From positions 2,604,001 through 2,668,000 of the forward strand of contig NZ_CP160205.1 of assembly GCF_041080815.1 (NCBI RefSeq): a DNA stretch of 64,000 nt, read 5' to 3'. Numbering within the stretch: the first letter of the stretch is position 1; each line of letters opens with the position of its first letter. The notes under the pieces are model-generated. The model was not told the origin of the DNA, made no database searches, and saw nothing but the letters and a program-made list of their open reading frames with translations. A program made the position numbers and the translations under genes. The stretch is from Mucilaginibacter yixingensis (GTDB lineage: Bacteria > Bacteroidota > Bacteroidia > Sphingobacteriales > Sphingobacteriaceae). This document shows positions 7,556-50,751 of the stretch, one piece after another.

Positions 7556-7560
7556 TTTAG

Positions 7561-7601
7561 TGAGTAGTGAGTAGTGAGTAGTGAGTAGTGAGTAGTGAGT
7601 A
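7561..7601. repeat. 7-bp tandem repeat (TGAGTAG)
   Basis: Five perfect copies of TGAGTAG and a partial sixth follow each other directly after the pirin stop codon. They contain stop codons in the plus frames. Such a microsatellite can vary in copy number by slippage; no function is evident. Confidence 0.9.
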
Positions 7602-27800: not shown

Positions 27801-29351
27801 ATGGCCAACACTACGATAAGCATGAGTAAGATAAGACAGATCCTCAGGATGTACAGCCAGGGCCGCAGCAAGCTATCGATAGCGGCCCAGACCGGCGTGT
27901 CACGCAATACCGCAAAGAAGTACCTTATTGCGTTCGATGCCAGCGGCTTTACGTTCGAGGAAATCAATACCCTTAATGATAAGGAGCTGGAGGACTTCTT
28001 TGGCAAAAGCAGTGAACGTCCCCCGGACAAGCGAATGGTGGCCCTGCAACGCTGTTTCCCGCAGATAGATAAAGAGTTAAAGCGTGTCGGTATGAACCGC
28101 CGCATCCTGTGGGAAGCTTATATCAAAGAGTTCCCTGACGGGTTCAAGTACACCCAATTCTGCTTTTATTACAACCAGTGGAAAGCCCGCGTGAACCCCA
28201 CGATGCACCTGGATCATAAAGCCGGTGATAAGCTGTATGTGGACTTTGCCGGTGAAAAGCTAAGCATAGCGGACAAGGATACCGGTGAGGTCATCGAGGC
28301 CGAGGTGTTCGTTGCTATCCTTGGCGCCAGCCAACTAACTTACGTAGAAGCTGTGCTGAGCCAGCAGAAAGAAGACTTTATAGCAGCCTGTGAGAATGCC
28401 CTGCACTTTTATGGCGGCGTACCTGCCGCCATCGTTCCCGACAACCTGAAGGCTGCCGTTACCAAGAGTAACCGCTATGAGCCAACGCTGAACGAGACCT
28501 TTGCTGACTTTGCCGACCATTACGGAACGACCATCTTACCAGCGAGGGCGTACCGCCCTCGTGACAAAGCACTGGTAGAAGGAGCCGTTAAGATCGTTTA
28601 CAGCCGTATCTACGCACCTGTTCGCAAAGAGGCCTATCATACCCTTGCAGAACTGAATATCGCGATCAAGGTCGCTTTAGAAGCACATAACAGCCAGCCG
28701 CTGAAAGGCCGCAATTACAGCAGAAAGCTCCAGTTCGAGGAGATAGAACGCCAGGCACTCTCGCCATTACCGGCATTACGTTATGAGTTCAAACGGCAGC
28801 ACCAGGCCACTGTAATGAAGAACGGACATGTTTGTCTGGGTATCGACAAACACTACTACAGCGTACCGTACCGCTTTATCGGCAGGAAGGTCAAACTGCT
28901 GTATTCCCGCACCAACGTAGAAGTCTACTACCACTATGAACGCATCGCCATGCACAGGCGCATCAAAAGCCCTTACAGCTACACAACGGATAAAGATCAC
29001 CTGGCTTCGACACACCGCTTTATGACCGAATGGACACCCGATAAGTTCCTGGAATGGGCAGCATCCATTCACGAGGATGTGAGGCTTTACATCCTGAAGA
29101 TACTGGACCGAAAGCAACATCCGGAACAAGCTTACCGCTCCTGTATCGGTATCCTCAGCCTGGCGCGCAAGGCAGGTAACGAAAGGCTGGCCAGCGCTTG
29201 CAGGCGTGCGCTCGGCTATGGCGTGTACAACTACAAGACCATACAGCAGATACTGGAGAACAAGATGGACAGCTACGAGGAAAGCTTATTTGCTGACGAG
29301 CTGCCTATGCCCAGCCATGACAATATCCGGGGAGAGAACTACTATAAATAA
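27801..29351 (+). CDS. istA: IS21-family transposase IstA
   Basis: The 516-residue transposase has an N-terminal HTH (about 10-40, SIAAQTGVSRNTAKKYL) and an rve-type DDE core beginning with LYVDFAGEKL, the second Asp in AIVPDNLKAAV and the Glu in RDKALVEGAVKIVYSRI. A C-terminal Mu-type domain follows. It should cut and join the IS ends with IstB as targeting ATPase. The sequence is identical to the copy-2 product. Confidence 0.95.
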   Translation: MANTTISMSKIRQILRMYSQGRSKLSIAAQTGVSRNTAKKYLIAFDASGFTFEEINTLNDKELEDFFGKSSERPPDKRMVALQRCFPQIDKELKRVGMNRRILWEAYIKEFPDGFKYTQFCFYYNQWKARVNPTMHLDHKAGDKLYVDFAGEKLSIADKDTGEVIEAEVFVAILGASQLTYVEAVLSQQKEDFIAACENALHFYGGVPAAIVPDNLKAAVTKSNRYEPTLNETFADFADHYGTTILPARAYRPRDKALVEGAVKIVYSRIYAPVRKEAYHTLAELNIAIKVALEAHNSQPLKGRNYSRKLQFEEIERQALSPLPALRYEFKRQHQATVMKNGHVCLGIDKHYYSVPYRFIGRKVKLLYSRTNVEVYYHYERIAMHRRIKSPYSYTTDKDHLASTHRFMTEWTPDKFLEWAASIHEDVRLYILKILDRKQHPEQAYRSCIGILSLARKAGNERLASACRRALGYGVYNYKTIQQILENKMDSYEESLFADELPMPSHDNIRGENYYK

Positions 29352-29371
29352 CCATTAATGAACAGATCGAT

Positions 29372-30133
29372 ATGAACACGAACACCTTAGACAAACTTCG
29401 CAAACTGAAGTTCTATGGCATGTACCATGCCTTTAAAAGCTGCCTGGAAACGGGACAGACCGCAGAATACACCACTGATGAACTGCTGGCCCACCTGGTA
29501 GAGGCCGAATGGGACGACCGGCAGAACAGGCGCATAGAGCGTACGATCATGTATGCTAAGTTCCGCTATAAGGCCTCGGTAGAGAACATCCACTACCATG
29601 CCGACCGTAGTATCGACCGCAATCAGGTAATGCGCCTGGCAGACTGCCACTTTATTGACCGGAATGAGAACCTGTTGATCACAGGCAGCACCGGTATCGG
29701 CAAAAGCTATATCGCTTCTGCTATCGGACACCAAGCCTGCATACTGGGTTACCGCGTGTTCTATGCCAGCACACCCAAACTCTTTGCTAAGCTGAAGATG
29801 GCCAAGGCAGATGGTTCCTACATGAAGGATGTAGCCAAACTGGAACGCCAGCAACTACTGATCCTGGATGACTTCGGTATACAACCTTTTGATGCGCAGA
29901 GCAGGGCCGCACTGATGGAGATCATTGAGGACAGGCACGGTAAGACATCCCTGATCATCACCTCTCAGCTGCCGGTCAGTAAATGGTATGAGGTCATTGG
30001 TGAAAAGACGATCGCTGATGCTATCCTCGACCGCATCGTGCATGATGCGCACCGGATGGAACTAAAGGGAGAGTCGATGAGAAAAAGAAGGCCCGCAGAG
30101 CCCGAAAAAAGCTATCTGCAAAACACACTTTAA
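29372..30133 (+). CDS. istB: IS21-family ATP-binding protein IstB
   Basis: The 253-residue AAA+ ATPase has Walker A GSTGIGKSY, Walker B LLILDDFG and a C-terminal RMELKGESMRKRR tail. IstB assembles on target DNA and recruits IstA. It begins 20 bp after istA. The product is identical to that of copy 2. Confidence 0.95.
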   Translation: MNTNTLDKLRKLKFYGMYHAFKSCLETGQTAEYTTDELLAHLVEAEWDDRQNRRIERTIMYAKFRYKASVENIHYHADRSIDRNQVMRLADCHFIDRNENLLITGSTGIGKSYIASAIGHQACILGYRVFYASTPKLFAKLKMAKADGSYMKDVAKLERQQLLILDDFGIQPFDAQSRAALMEIIEDRHGKTSLIITSQLPVSKWYEVIGEKTIADAILDRIVHDAHRMELKGESMRKRRPAEPEKSYLQNTL

Positions 30134-30272: not shown

Positions 30273-30611
30273 TCATAAGTCTGTGTTTTCAATAAAGTGT
30301 TTAATGATCTGTTTAATATCCGGGGTATTCCCCACGAGTTCTTTGACGGCAAAGGCGACCAGTTTTGAGATGTCTACGCCGGTAGCCATTTTAAATTGAT
30401 TCATCAGCCGTACCGTTTTTTCGTCGAAACGCACATGAACCATATGCTTAAAACCAGTGGTATCGTAGTCTTGTAACGTTTTCAGAAACGGGGAATCTGC
30501 CTGCCGCTCTTTTTTCTTTGCGCTCCTGCTGTTTTTGGTCGTGGCAGTTTTCGAGGCCGGATCTTTTAACTCTCTCCGGATCTGATCGGCCAGCGATTTA
30601 ATATTTTCCAT
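30273..30611 (-). CDS. TraB-like/ribbon-helix-helix mobilisation protein
   Basis: The 112-residue protein has a lysine-rich N-terminal half and a C-terminal segment (VHVRFDEKTVRLMNQFKMATGVDISKLVAFAV) resembling a ribbon-helix-helix fold. In Bacteroidota conjugative elements a small protein of this kind (DUF3408/TraB-like) commonly follows the ParA-like TraA. ATG at 30611 overlaps parA by 14 bp and is preferred to the longer TTG-type frame. It lies 31 bp from the IS21 copy, so genes that once followed may have been deleted. Confidence 0.6.
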   Translation of the reverse strand: MENIKSLADQIRRELKDPASKTATTKNSRSAKKKERQADSPFLKTLQDYDTTGFKHMVHVRFDEKTVRLMNQFKMATGVDISKLVAFAVKELVGNTPDIKQIIKHFIENTDL

Positions 30612-31227
30612 GAATGTGTTCCGCATAGATCTGGTTCAATACCGGTGATAAAACCGGGGTTAATAAAGTTGGGGTTTGGAATGTTGTCAACCGTTGAAAG
30701 TCGATGCGATCCGGCAACATCGGCGTCAGCGTTCCGAGCCGTAACAACTGGGTATTGACTTCTTCCATGATCTCAAATTTGGCATTGGCCTTAATCCGGT
30801 TGGGCACAAATACCAGGGGCATCTTCGGACTCACTTTTTTTAATACCAAAGCAAAATGAACCGTTGAGACGAAAGTGAACTCATCATAAGCAAAAGGGCA
30901 TATGAGCAAATTGCCGAGAACAAACACATCCAGTAATCCATCATCATCAAGCTTACCTGGCAGATCGATCAATATGATGGCATTTTTTGTATCCGCAATG
31001 GAATTCATTAATGAGCCGAAGCCTTCCAACGTTGCCGGCAACACTTCATAAGGTTCCTCATTTTCCAGCAATTTGGCTTTATCATATTTCTGCATCAGGG
31101 ACTGCTGATAATCGAGATCGATGACGAGCACCGGGCATTTTTTTTCGAGGGTGAGGTAGTTGGCCAGACTTAGTGTGATTGTACTCTTGCCCGCACCACC
31201 CTTTTGATTTCCGATAAGAATGATCAT
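30598..31227 (-). CDS. ParA-family ATPase (TraA-like)
   Basis: The 209-residue protein has the deviant Walker A GNQKGGAGKSTITL and a switch motif IILIDLPGKLDDDG. Such ParA proteins are encoded in Bacteroidota mobilisable and conjugative elements and are thought to help element maintenance or the transfer apparatus. It lies 24 bp downstream of the relaxase and overlaps the TraB-like gene, so it belongs to the mob operon. Confidence 0.88.
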   Translation of the reverse strand: MIILIGNQKGGAGKSTITLSLANYLTLEKKCPVLVIDLDYQQSLMQKYDKAKLLENEEPYEVLPATLEGFGSLMNSIADTKNAIILIDLPGKLDDDGLLDVFVLGNLLICPFAYDEFTFVSTVHFALVLKKVSPKMPLVFVPNRIKANAKFEIMEEVNTQLLRLGTLTPMLPDRIDFQRLTTFQTPTLLTPVLSPVLNQIYAEHIHGKY

Positions 31228-31251: not shown

Positions 31252-32229
31252 CTAACGCGTATTGGTGCGGGCTTTCCGCTGACGCCGTCTCCGCATCCCG
31301 TGAATTTGCTGATCGTCCACATCTCCGGCAATCCAGATTGACTGCACGTGAATGGTCCGAAGCGGGTTATTGCTGATCTGCTGCATACCCGGCTCCTTAA
31401 GTTCTCTGTTAGGAAAAATCACCTGGTTTCTGTCACGATCACCGAGCAATTCTTTAAGCCCAAGCACCTCGCTTCCCTTATAAACGGTCAGGGATTGATG
31501 ATCAATGATGGTATAGCCATACGGCTGCTTACCTTCGGCAGCGTGAAAAAGCAGTTCTACGGAATGTTGATCTTTGAGCACCGGTAGCATTTCCTTTTCA
31601 TCACGTAGACCCAGCAGCACTTCTCTTAACGCTTTTATCCTATCCACATCAGGTTTGTACGCTGCTATGCAATCTTCAATTCTTTTGTGATCAGGATCCA
31701 GGCCAGCGAACCCGGCTTGTTCCAGCAACATAAAGTATTGCGCTTTGGTACTGATCCGGTAGGCTGAAGCATACTCATAACCCAATACTTTCGACATATT
31801 TTTCTGCGAGCGGATCTTCTCATAAGCACTGTTGATCTTCTCCCCTTTGCGGTCTACCCTTGAGCTGACGATGTGGACATGATTGTTTTCGGTATCCTTA
31901 TGATAGATGATCAGGTAAGGCTGCCTACCGTAACCCATTTCCTTCAGCCAATTCTCCGCAATGGCCGTCAACCGTGCCTTATCATACAGGTGGCCTTTAC
32001 CGGAGATCACGGCGTGAAACTGCGGCTTTTTCACCGCCGGGTTTAAAGCAGCCAGTGTTTTCAAGTAATTGACGTAGTCTTGTGGCCGAAGATTTGAGAA
32101 TCCCTGCAGCACGCCGAAGTTGGCGACTTTCATCAACTCCCCCTTATTACGATCCACTTTATTGGTGTTATAGCGAACACCCGGAAAAAGCGCACCGCTC
32201 TTTTGTTGATAAAGCAGTTTTACAATCAT
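31252..32229 (-). CDS. Relaxase/mobilisation nuclease (MobB-like)
   Basis: The 325-residue protein nicks the element at oriT and pilots the strand. The MOBP-type histidine motif is NNHVHIVSSRVDRKGEKI, and the N-terminal Tyr-bearing region (VRYNTNKVDRNKGEL) and HAVISGKGH agree with the family. The C-terminal part is short and ends in a basic tail (RRRRQRKARTNTR). A mobC-like gene precedes it, separated only by the octamer array. Confidence 0.88.
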   Translation of the reverse strand: MIVKLLYQQKSGALFPGVRYNTNKVDRNKGELMKVANFGVLQGFSNLRPQDYVNYLKTLAALNPAVKKPQFHAVISGKGHLYDKARLTAIAENWLKEMGYGRQPYLIIYHKDTENNHVHIVSSRVDRKGEKINSAYEKIRSQKNMSKVLGYEYASAYRISTKAQYFMLLEQAGFAGLDPDHKRIEDCIAAYKPDVDRIKALREVLLGLRDEKEMLPVLKDQHSVELLFHAAEGKQPYGYTIIDHQSLTVYKGSEVLGLKELLGDRDRNQVIFPNRELKEPGMQQISNNPLRTIHVQSIWIAGDVDDQQIHGMRRRRQRKARTNTR

Positions 32230-32245
32230 GAACAGCTGTTTAATA

Positions 32246-32653
32246 TAACTGAACAGCTAGCTCGCCACATAGCAACGTAGCCAGATAGCTGACCAGCGCA
32301 CTATCACCATAAACCACTAACGCTATAACTACGGAACTAAAGAACCTCATATCCACCTATCCAGTCATCACTATAACTAACTCACGGTCTATCGCAGTAC
32401 CTGTATAACTGAATGTCTCTATAACCACCTAACTGGATAGCCAGGTAACCGAAGACCAGCGTAACGAAGTAACTGCGTAACCAGATACAAAGATCGTTAT
32501 AACAAGCTAGCCCGGTAACACCGTCACCAGCTATTGGTGTAACCGGATAACTGACTAACCTGGTAACCAACAATCTACATAACAGTATAATCAAGTACAT
32601 CGGTAACGATATAACTAACTGGCTAACCGTATAGCTTAGTAAACCAGTTACAG
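32246..32653. repeat. Degenerate 8-bp-period array filling the mobC-relaxase gap
   Basis: Units of the form TANCNNNN follow every 8 bp. From 32270 to 32493 there are 28 units without a phase break; in my count position 2 is A in 26 and position 4 is C in 26, while positions 5-8 vary. Short phase slips occur at 32494 (6-nt unit) and 32612 (4-nt unit). The array reaches from 17 bp before the relaxase start to the mobC stop. No gene is credible in it. The function is unknown; an accessory-protein binding array or an oriT component is possible. Confidence 0.85.
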
Positions 32654-33067
32654 TTAACGACTGATCATTTCCAGGATGATCTTTCGCAGACTGACCTCCA
32701 GTTTCGATTGCAAAGTCAGATACCTTTCGAGTAAATCGTTAAATTGAGATACGACCTCCGGCCGGAGGCTTCCCTGGATGCGGAGTGTATTGGCATGGTG
32801 GGCTAACTGATTAATATTATTGCCGGCGCGTCCGAGTTCTGTACCTACCCTGTCCAGTTCGCCGAGCAGCGCCTGTGCGTTGACAACCACCATTCCAGCT
32901 TCGTTCAACAGCCGTTTCCGGACGAGTTCAGTCTTACTGATCCCTAATTCCCTTTCCATCGCCAGCACTTTCTTATACTCCTCTTCGGTAAACCTGACAT
33001 CAATCTTTCGCGTACGTTTACCCTCCGGCATCGGAGGCCTTCCCGTCTGGCTTTTGGATTCACTCAT
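32654..33067 (-). CDS. MobC-like relaxosome accessory protein
   Basis: The preferred ATG at 33067 gives 137 residues. An N-terminal ribbon-helix-helix segment (RKIDVRFTEEEYKKVLAMERELG) precedes the MobC signature ELGRAGNNINQLAHHANT near residues 80-97. MobC proteins bind near oriT and help the relaxase open the strands. The frame is open further upstream into a conserved-looking non-coding stretch with an inverted repeat. Confidence 0.88.
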   Translation of the reverse strand: MSESKSQTGRPPMPEGKRTRKIDVRFTEEEYKKVLAMERELGISKTELVRKRLLNEAGMVVVNAQALLGELDRVGTELGRAGNNINQLAHHANTLRIQGSLRPEVVSQFNDLLERYLTLQSKLEVSLRKIILEMISR

Positions 33068-33105: not shown

Positions 33106-33155
33106 GGGCAAGATCGCTTTTTGGGAGACGTGTCGGACAAAAAGACATCTTGCCC
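33106..33155. other. Inverted repeat upstream of mobC, candidate oriT
   Basis: GGGCAAGAT (33106-33114) is repeated inverted at 33147-33155 (ATCTTGCCC), with 32 bp between them holding TTTTTGGGAGACGTGTCGG. Mobilisation origins commonly lie beside mobC and contain such repeats. Assignment as oriT is inference. Confidence 0.4.
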
Positions 33156-48418: not shown

Positions 48419-49180
48419 TTAAAGTGTGTTTTGCAGATAGCTTTTTTCGGGCTCTGCGGGCCTTCTTTTTCTCATCGACTCTCCCTTTAGTTCCATCCGG
48501 TGCGCATCATGCACGATGCGGTCGAGGATAGCATCAGCGATCGTCTTTTCACCAATGACCTCATACCATTTACTGACCGGCAGCTGAGAGGTGATGATCA
48601 GGGATGTCTTACCGTGCCTGTCCTCAATGATCTCCATCAGTGCGGCCCTGCTCTGCGCATCAAAAGGTTGTATACCGAAGTCATCCAGGATCAGTAGTTG
48701 CTGGCGTTCCAGTTTGGCTACATCCTTCATGTAGGAACCATCTGCCTTGGCCATCTTCAGCTTAGCAAAGAGTTTGGGTGTGCTGGCATAGAACACGCGG
48801 TAACCCAGTATGCAGGCTTGGTGTCCGATAGCAGAAGCGATATAGCTTTTGCCGATACCGGTGCTGCCTGTGATCAACAGGTTCTCATTCCGGTCAATAA
48901 AGTGGCAGTCTGCCAGGCGCATTACCTGATTGCGGTCGATACTACGGTCGGCATGGTAGTGGATGTTCTCTACCGAGGCCTTATAGCGGAACTTAGCATA
49001 CATGATCGTACGCTCTATGCGCCTGTTCTGCCGGTCGTCCCATTCGGCCTCTACCAGGTGGGCCAGCAGTTCATCAGTGGTGTATTCTGCGGTCTGTCCC
49101 GTTTCCAGGCAGCTTTTAAAGGCATGGTACATGCCATAGAACTTCAGTTTGCGAAGTTTGTCTAAGGTGTTCGTGTTCAT
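48419..49180 (-). CDS. istB: IS21-family ATP-binding protein IstB (copy 2)
   Basis: This 253-residue AAA+ ATPase is identical to the copy-1 product, with GSTGIGKSY and LLILDDFG. It follows istA by 20 bp on the minus strand. Large antisense frames over it are shadows. Confidence 0.95.
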   Translation of the reverse strand: MNTNTLDKLRKLKFYGMYHAFKSCLETGQTAEYTTDELLAHLVEAEWDDRQNRRIERTIMYAKFRYKASVENIHYHADRSIDRNQVMRLADCHFIDRNENLLITGSTGIGKSYIASAIGHQACILGYRVFYASTPKLFAKLKMAKADGSYMKDVAKLERQQLLILDDFGIQPFDAQSRAALMEIIEDRHGKTSLIITSQLPVSKWYEVIGEKTIADAILDRIVHDAHRMELKGESMRKRRPAEPEKSYLQNTL

Positions 49181-49200
49181 ATCGATCTGTTCATTAATGG

Positions 49201-50751
49201 TTATTTATAGTAGTTCTCTCCCCGGATATTGTCATGGCTGGGCATAGGCAGCTCGTCAGCAAATAAGCTTTCCTCGTAGCTGTCCATCTTGTTCTCCAGT
49301 ATCTGCTGTATGGTCTTGTAGTTGTACACGCCATAGCCGAGCGCACGCCTGCAAGCGCTGGCCAGCCTTTCGTTACCTGCCTTGCGCGCCAGGCTGAGGA
49401 TACCGATACAGGAGCGGTAAGCTTGTTCCGGATGTTGCTTTCGGTCCAGTATCTTCAGGATGTAAAGCCTCACATCCTCGTGAATGGATGCTGCCCATTC
49501 CAGGAACTTATCGGGTGTCCATTCGGTCATAAAGCGGTGTGTCGAAGCCAGGTGATCTTTATCCGTTGTGTAGCTGTAAGGGCTTTTGATGCGCCTGTGC
49601 ATGGCGATGCGTTCATAGTGGTAGTAGACTTCTACGTTGGTGCGGGAATACAGCAGTTTGACCTTCCTGCCGATAAAGCGGTACGGTACGCTGTAGTAGT
49701 GTTTGTCGATACCCAGACAAACATGTCCGTTCTTCATTACAGTGGCCTGGTGCTGCCGTTTGAACTCATAACGTAATGCCGGTAATGGCGAGAGTGCCTG
49801 GCGTTCTATCTCCTCGAACTGGAGCTTTCTGCTGTAATTGCGGCCTTTCAGCGGCTGGCTGTTATGTGCTTCTAAAGCGACCTTGATCGCGATATTCAGT
49901 TCTGCAAGGGTATGATAGGCCTCTTTGCGAACAGGTGCGTAGATACGGCTGTAAACGATCTTAACGGCTCCTTCTACCAGTGCTTTGTCACGAGGGCGGT
50001 ACGCCCTCGCTGGTAAGATGGTCGTTCCGTAATGGTCGGCAAAGTCAGCAAAGGTCTCGTTCAGCGTTGGCTCATAGCGGTTACTCTTGGTAACGGCAGC
50101 CTTCAGGTTGTCGGGAACGATGGCGGCAGGTACGCCGCCATAAAAGTGCAGGGCATTCTCACAGGCTGCTATAAAGTCTTCTTTCTGCTGGCTCAGCACA
50201 GCTTCTACGTAAGTTAGTTGGCTGGCGCCAAGGATAGCAACGAACACCTCGGCCTCGATGACCTCACCGGTATCCTTGTCCGCTATGCTTAGCTTTTCAC
50301 CGGCAAAGTCCACATACAGCTTATCACCGGCTTTATGATCCAGGTGCATCGTGGGGTTCACGCGGGCTTTCCACTGGTTGTAATAAAAGCAGAATTGGGT
50401 GTACTTGAACCCGTCAGGGAACTCTTTGATATAAGCTTCCCACAGGATGCGGCGGTTCATACCGACACGCTTTAACTCTTTATCTATCTGCGGGAAACAG
50501 CGTTGCAGGGCCACCATTCGCTTGTCCGGGGGACGTTCACTGCTTTTGCCAAAGAAGTCCTCCAGCTCCTTATCATTAAGGGTATTGATTTCCTCGAACG
50601 TAAAGCCGCTGGCATCGAACGCAATAAGGTACTTCTTTGCGGTATTGCGTGACACGCCGGTCTGGGCCGCTATCGATAGCTTGCTGCGGCCCTGGCTGTA
50701 CATCCTGAGGATCTGTCTTATCTTACTCATGCTTATCGTAGTGTTGGCCAT
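49201..50751 (-). CDS. istA: IS21-family transposase IstA (copy 2)
   Basis: This 516-residue DDE transposase is identical to the copy-1 product and looks intact. With two identical active-looking copies, further transposition or recombination between copies is possible. Confidence 0.95.
   Translation of the reverse strand: MANTTISMSKIRQILRMYSQGRSKLSIAAQTGVSRNTAKKYLIAFDASGFTFEEINTLNDKELEDFFGKSSERPPDKRMVALQRCFPQIDKELKRVGMNRRILWEAYIKEFPDGFKYTQFCFYYNQWKARVNPTMHLDHKAGDKLYVDFAGEKLSIADKDTGEVIEAEVFVAILGASQLTYVEAVLSQQKEDFIAACENALHFYGGVPAAIVPDNLKAAVTKSNRYEPTLNETFADFADHYGTTILPARAYRPRDKALVEGAVKIVYSRIYAPVRKEAYHTLAELNIAIKVALEAHNSQPLKGRNYSRKLQFEEIERQALSPLPALRYEFKRQHQATVMKNGHVCLGIDKHYYSVPYRFIGRKVKLLYSRTNVEVYYHYERIAMHRRIKSPYSYTTDKDHLASTHRFMTEWTPDKFLEWAASIHEDVRLYILKILDRKQHPEQAYRSCIGILSLARKAGNERLASACRRALGYGVYNYKTIQQILENKMDSYEESLFADELPMPSHDNIRGENYYK

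Follow-up and report, generated by a model that had tools for sequence, protein, structure and literature searches.

The partition system of plasmid pSM19035 comprises a ParA protein (delta), a ribbon-helix-helix (RHH) ParB protein (omega), and parS sites made of heptads (5'-WATCACW-3'), of which at least four contiguous repeats are needed (PMC9499535). These 7-bp units number 7-10 per site and lie in the promoters of copS, delta, and omega (PMC9499535). In plasmid R388, StbA and the ParA-like StbB act with 9-bp repeats beside oriT and balance stability with conjugation, and StbA shows no sequence homology to ParB-like proteins (PMC3098194). The R388 repeats (stbDRs) lie in the stb promoter region as two sets of five with 2-bp gaps, and their unit sequence is conserved. 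In Agrobacterium, polar placement of the relaxosome is a proposed role of the ParA-like VirC1 (cited in PMC3098194). Among relaxosome proteins, PcfF binds inverted repeats beside nic and not long arrays (PMC6514445). In the open-licence PMC papers, we found no description for Bacteroidota of an array such as the one reported here.

We analyzed a 64,000-nucleotide stretch of the Mucilaginibacter yixingensis chromosome (NZ_CP160205.1, positions 2,604,001 to 2,668,000; hereafter, the window), in which a mobile element carries about 50 degenerate units of 8 bp between mobC and the relaxase gene (Table 1). A preliminary description, made from the letters of the window, had noted 28 such units of the form TANC plus four variable bases in a single phase at 32270-32493. 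That observation is confirmed by our unit listing: 26 of the 28 units have A at position 2 (the exceptions being TCAC and TGTC), and equally many have C at position 4 (the exceptions being TAAA and TACA). The units also continue to the mobC stop, as had been described, with a few phase shifts after 32493 and hence not in unbroken phase. In addition, the array does occupy the entire spacer; its edges lie 13 bp before the relaxase start codon (32229) and 5 bp from the mobC stop (32654).

Table 1. Coordinates of the array and of the mob-operon features in the window.
Feature	Position	Strand	Basis
RHH117, 117-aa putative ribbon-helix-helix protein; overlaps parA	30273..30626	-	Alignment A6, monomer model
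ParA-type ATPase, motif KGGAGKST; third gene after mobC and the relaxase gene	30598..31227	-	Pfam CbiA/AAA_31/MipZ
Relaxase (PF03432), MobA/VirD2-like, 325 aa; array-bearing relaxA clade	31252..32229	-	Pfam 5.5e-19, relatives
Degenerate octamer array	32243..32648	-	Autocorrelation, cyclic HMM, null
MobC, NikA-like (PF21983) ribbon-helix-helix accessory protein; upstream neighbor of the array	32654..33067	-	Pfam 2.5e-13
Conserved nic-like block GCAAGWTGTSTTTTTGT / GCAAGATGTCTTTTTGT, in an imperfect inverted repeat (hairpin)	33137..33153	-	Exact block in most relatives

On the relaxase-coding strand, the core reads G-N-T-[A/C]-NNNN (TANC on the plus strand), and the unit frequencies in the window are G(0.88)-N-T(0.89)-A(0.82)-NNNN. 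The proposed fixed core at fixed spacing is therefore present, but the bases outside it are not free; for example, A is rare at position 5. A cyclic 8-state HMM assigned the array 136 nats over background and 51 units, 4 of which are not 8 bp long, whereas the null, taken from the highest non-array peak at each of 60 related loci, had a median of 18 nats and reached 29 nats at most. The lag-8 autocorrelation was 0.457 versus 0.270 in dinucleotide shuffles (z = 8.7), so that the anticipated 8-bp periodicity is well above that of shuffled sequence, with further peaks at lags 16, 24, 32, 40, 48, and 56 and a weak or no excess at other lags. As had also been pointed out, this is not an ordinary tandem repeat: only 3-4 of the 8 positions are conserved, and Tandem Repeats Finder returned only a 42-bp fragment.

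The preliminary statement that no element like it has been described proved too strong, given that the pSM19035 parS heptads and the R388 stbDRs are functional analogues. The array shares with pSM19035 its gapless, short, non-palindromic units in direct and inverted arrangement, a small putative RHH-type protein, and a small ParA (PMC9499535), but its units are of 8 bp with 4-5 unspecified positions, and RHH117 has no detectable sequence match to a solved RHH structure. Like the stbDRs, it is a direct-repeat array near a candidate oriT that is accompanied by a putative DNA-binding protein and a ParA-like ATPase. Its resemblance to VirC1 and the RHH accessory protein VirC2 lies in such a pair acting beside a transfer origin. 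Agrobacterium overdrive is a short enhancer sequence and, unlike the window locus, is not known to have a long degenerate array. As for NikA and PcfF, the window MobC belongs to the NikA-like family and resembles PcfF weakly (E 0.003, profile A2).

The assignment of RHH117 needs some care. The protein combines a strand MVHVRF with a conserved N-terminal helix in which one Arg is invariant (alignment A6), and its monomer model runs from an N-terminal helix through an extended segment to three helices. From this sequence pattern and helix layout, we infer an RHH fold. RHH117 has no Pfam match, so we do not class it as a DUF3408 protein, and a profile search with it returned no RHH protein among PDB sequences. 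Foldseek with the monomer model gave weak matches only, two of them to RHH antitoxins (ParD; E 6-8), and is uninformative, as would be expected of a fold in which the strand pairs only in the dimer. ParA matches the NCBIfam model ParA_partition at 8e-17, under the cut-off of that model, and the order with ParA directly upstream of and overlapping RHH117 is the same in relatives. Set beside type Ib ParABS systems, the locus thus presents a deviant Walker A ParA (KGGAGKST) encoded with and overlapping a putative DNA-binding protein, a strand-helix-helix pattern plus N-terminal helix in that protein with weak structural matches, and a contiguous short-repeat array whose centromere action is our proposal.

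The window element itself is probably truncated, because an IS21-type istA/istB pair (27801-30133) stands directly after RHH117, seemingly severing the remaining transfer operon. Beyond this pair, the ORFs examined include a recombinase-like fragment and a gene for a Mur ligase/alanine racemase, and none of them is a tra gene. A second istA/istB copy lies at 48419-50751 in opposite orientation; the istA proteins are identical, and the copies have 24-bp terminal repeats.

With regard to related mob loci, we scanned 80 relaxase loci of Mucilaginibacter, Pedobacter, Sphingobacterium, Parapedobacter, and Daejeonella (Sphingobacteriaceae). An 8-bp array was detected in 61 of them (threshold of at least 40 nats) and a 15-bp array in 11, such that 72 of the 80 loci bear one or the other; instead of an ordinary spacer, related loci have the same kind of array at this place. 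The array sits in the mobC-relaxase spacer in most Mucilaginibacter, and upstream of mobC where mobC and the relaxase gene abut or overlap. Period-8 signals in the 20-kb surroundings of thirteen mob loci of relatives are confined to the mob locus. The 15-bp arrays repeat the same half-site in the form of inverted pairs (TANC-NN-GNTM-N5), and in this clade 39 TANC-NN-GNTA pairs were observed versus about 1.4 expected.

Elsewhere on the same chromosome (5.36 Mb) there is one other array (563078-563449); it lies within the coding sequence of a distant second relaxase (relaxB), which is 26% identical to the window relaxase over the aligned part. The remaining matches to the core there are a TATC microsatellite and isolated or a few overlapping ones at or near the mismatch limit. 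A gene-blind search for the DNA pattern across the family reached unrelated mob modules, namely relaxA, relaxB, DUF5712/MobB with BfmA, and another MobB-like relaxase module that has MobC and ParA. With simple octamer repeats and the low-complexity repeats of other genera put aside, this search yielded 11 non-simple matches in Mucilaginibacter: 8 beside mob genes, 1 in the gene of a HEPN protein (L089), and 2 weak ones. Across loci, the arrays range from about 15 to 60 units, in or near the relaxase operon or inside the relaxase coding sequence. Relatives of relaxB in other genera of the family have few 8-bp arrays, and outside the Sphingobacteriaceae we encountered ParA/RHH-like operons with no obvious 8-bp array.

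The core positions of the array are under purifying selection. Between orthologous arrays, changes were found at 18 of 223 core positions versus 70 of 372 other positions (odds ratio 0.38, p about 3e-4), and a second ortholog group gave 26 of 469 versus 91 of 779 (odds ratio 0.44, p about 3e-4, uncorrected for the overlap of its sequence pairs). In the relaxB coding-sequence arrays, which occur in three codon phases, A at position 2 has frequencies of 0.85, 0.85, and 0.92 and C at position 4 of 0.81, 0.77, and 0.80. T at position 1 falls to 0.14, mainly replaced by G, only in the phase that makes TAN an in-frame codon, and is 0.59 and 0.81 in the others. Since all three codon phases retain the core while stops are avoided, the constraint acts on the DNA and not on the protein, and we reject a protein-repeat origin of the in-gene arrays. 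These in-relaxase arrays clearly illustrate how a DNA-level code can overlie protein coding.

The same data bear on whether the array might be a functionless, decayed tandem repeat left by slippage. Ordinary octamer tandem repeats such as GGTCATTG do occur in the genus, and arrays expand and contract in units of 8: the larger indels between orthologous arrays are mostly of 8, 16, 24, or 48 bp or compensating, although one divergent pair has irregular gaps. However, the units are degenerate while their core is selected, the core persists across codon phases with stop avoidance, and one kind of locus carries the array in 72 of the 80 relatives scanned. On the basis of core selection, codon-phase retention, and locus specificity, we reject microsatellite decay, which we regard as highly improbable.

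We then compared four proteins of the relaxA operon (RHH117, relaxase, ParA, and MobC) as tracers of the array class. Between the 8-bp-spacer and 15-bp classes, 1 change is required on RHH117 (bootstraps 1-1), 2 on the relaxase (2-3), 4 on ParA (3-4), and 5 on MobC (5-6); over all array classes, the changes number 4, 5, 7, and 9, respectively. Array architecture is thus co-inherited with RHH117, which the preliminary description had called TraB-like, and such co-inheritance makes RHH117 the best candidate reader of the array and MobC the poorest. In addition, where the predicted DNA-reading strand of RHH117 has His (M-V-H-x-R-F), G at unit position 1 has a median frequency of 0.86 (n = 37 loci), versus 0.40 where it lacks His (LL-IRLD; n = 23 loci). 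Where x in H-x-R is aromatic, A at unit position 2 has a median of 0.78 versus 0.30. This covariation is only suggestive because few independent events underlie it (for His a single change, and for the aromatic residue one independent pair with support), and the p-values ignore relatedness. The MobC strand KFINVRF is common to loci with and without the RHH117 His and so does not separate the differing cores.

We therefore consider it probable that the array is a centromere-like (parS-like) platform and a candidate site for RHH117, within a ParA/RHH module inside the mob operon. RHH117 dimers would each occupy one G-N-T-[A/C] half-site, tiling the DNA at 8-bp steps or, in the sister clade, as inverted pairs at 15-bp steps, and such tiling would produce a long RHH117-DNA nucleoprotein filament. 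By analogy, the conserved N-terminal helix of RHH117, with its invariant Arg, may be the ParA-contact element, and ParA would tether the filament to either the nucleoid or the transfer machinery. As a result, the excised element could segregate and/or the relaxosome could reach the secretion channel. Array binding, cooperativity, ParA contact, and a role in segregation or docking are all inferred, and the array may relate to segregation of the excised element, to relaxosome docking, or to both.

The preliminary description had suggested a cooperative binding platform or a part of oriT. The former, tied to the mob module, is well supported; the latter is less so, because a nic-like block stands apart from the array and because the Bacteroides plasmid pBF9343 has this block, also in exact form, together with MobC but no 8-bp array. 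In the window, the block is ~0.5 kb from the array, on the upstream side of mobC, and the array neither contains nor abuts it. In relatives it is usually found just upstream of mobC, with the distance exceeding 1 kb at some Sphingobacterium, Parapedobacter, and Pedobacter loci. A nic or oriT core inside the array is accordingly not supported. The conserved block is a better oriT candidate than the array and a candidate core for this relaxase family.

Could the array instead be an accessory part of oriT, to which the NikA-like MobC binds and along which it recruits the relaxase in a long filament? MobC is an RHH accessory protein whose gene adjoins the array in the window, relaxB loci also have mobC-type RHH proteins although they lack ParA and RHH117, and arrays lie in the mob region, usually ~0.1-0.9 kb from the nic-like block. 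RHH relaxosome proteins such as PcfF are also known to bind oriT repeats (PMC6514445). Nevertheless, array architecture tracks MobC worst of the four genes, near-identical MobC reading strands pair with different cores, and pBF9343 lacks the array, all of which makes this explanation unlikely.

Several findings speak against the centromere-like reading centered on RHH117, among them the array in a HEPN-protein gene away from mob genes, the weak structural matches of RHH117, and the ParA/RHH-like operons outside the Sphingobacteriaceae that have no obvious 8-bp array. The GNTM core and 8-bp step are common to the relaxA, relaxB, BfmA/DUF5712, and MobB-like modules of Mucilaginibacter, which have different RHH proteins. 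No ParA is encoded nearby at the relaxB and BfmA/DUF5712 array loci, and 5 of 12 sampled array-bearing genomes have no RHH117 match; for these reasons, the relaxB and BfmA arrays would be read either by their own RHH proteins or by a shared factor. One version of the latter is that a host-encoded or shared protein reads the array and that unrelated elements of one genus carry its core by mimicry or hijacking. The shared core and the genomes lacking RHH117 speak for it, but within relaxA loci both architecture and bases track the element's own RHH117, and no candidate host reader was found; we deem it quite improbable. More broadly, we offer as a tentative possibility, on the doubtful side, that half-sites at fixed pitch are a general centromere-like code of unrelated conjugative and mobilizable elements in one family, written even through relaxase coding in all codon phases and read by a common kind of RHH/ParA machinery, so that several elements use or hijack one positioning system.

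The array is a recurring cis-element of Sphingobacteriaceae mobile elements and ties a ParA module to the relaxase operon. Its natural series of 8-bp direct, 15-bp inverted, and altered-core forms allows tests of how the predicted RHH strand reads DNA, as well as of how ParA systems couple segregation to conjugation.

Several further repeats were noted. Away from mob genes, the gene of a 488-aa HEPN-domain protein holds an 8-bp GNTM array (L106:218-1684, L107:6449-7915, and L108:6176-7627). Two Pontibacter plasmids have a near-perfect 14-bp tandem repeat, TTAATAAGTAAGAA, in about 17-19 copies in the mobC-relaxase spacer (L203:3590-3850 and L267:2618-2850), where it precedes the relaxase, ParA, and an RHH-like protein; neither a 14-bp nor a 7-bp repeat is present on a third Pontibacter plasmid, and Adhaeribacter has a weak 7-bp repeat in this spacer. 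Perfect octamer tandem repeats (GGTCATTG and TAACCGAC) occur in several Mucilaginibacter genomes (L087, L095-L099, and L101), with no mob-gene match in the flanks examined. Finally, the window contains a perfect 7-bp tandem repeat, TAGTGAG, in 6.3 copies at 7558-7601.
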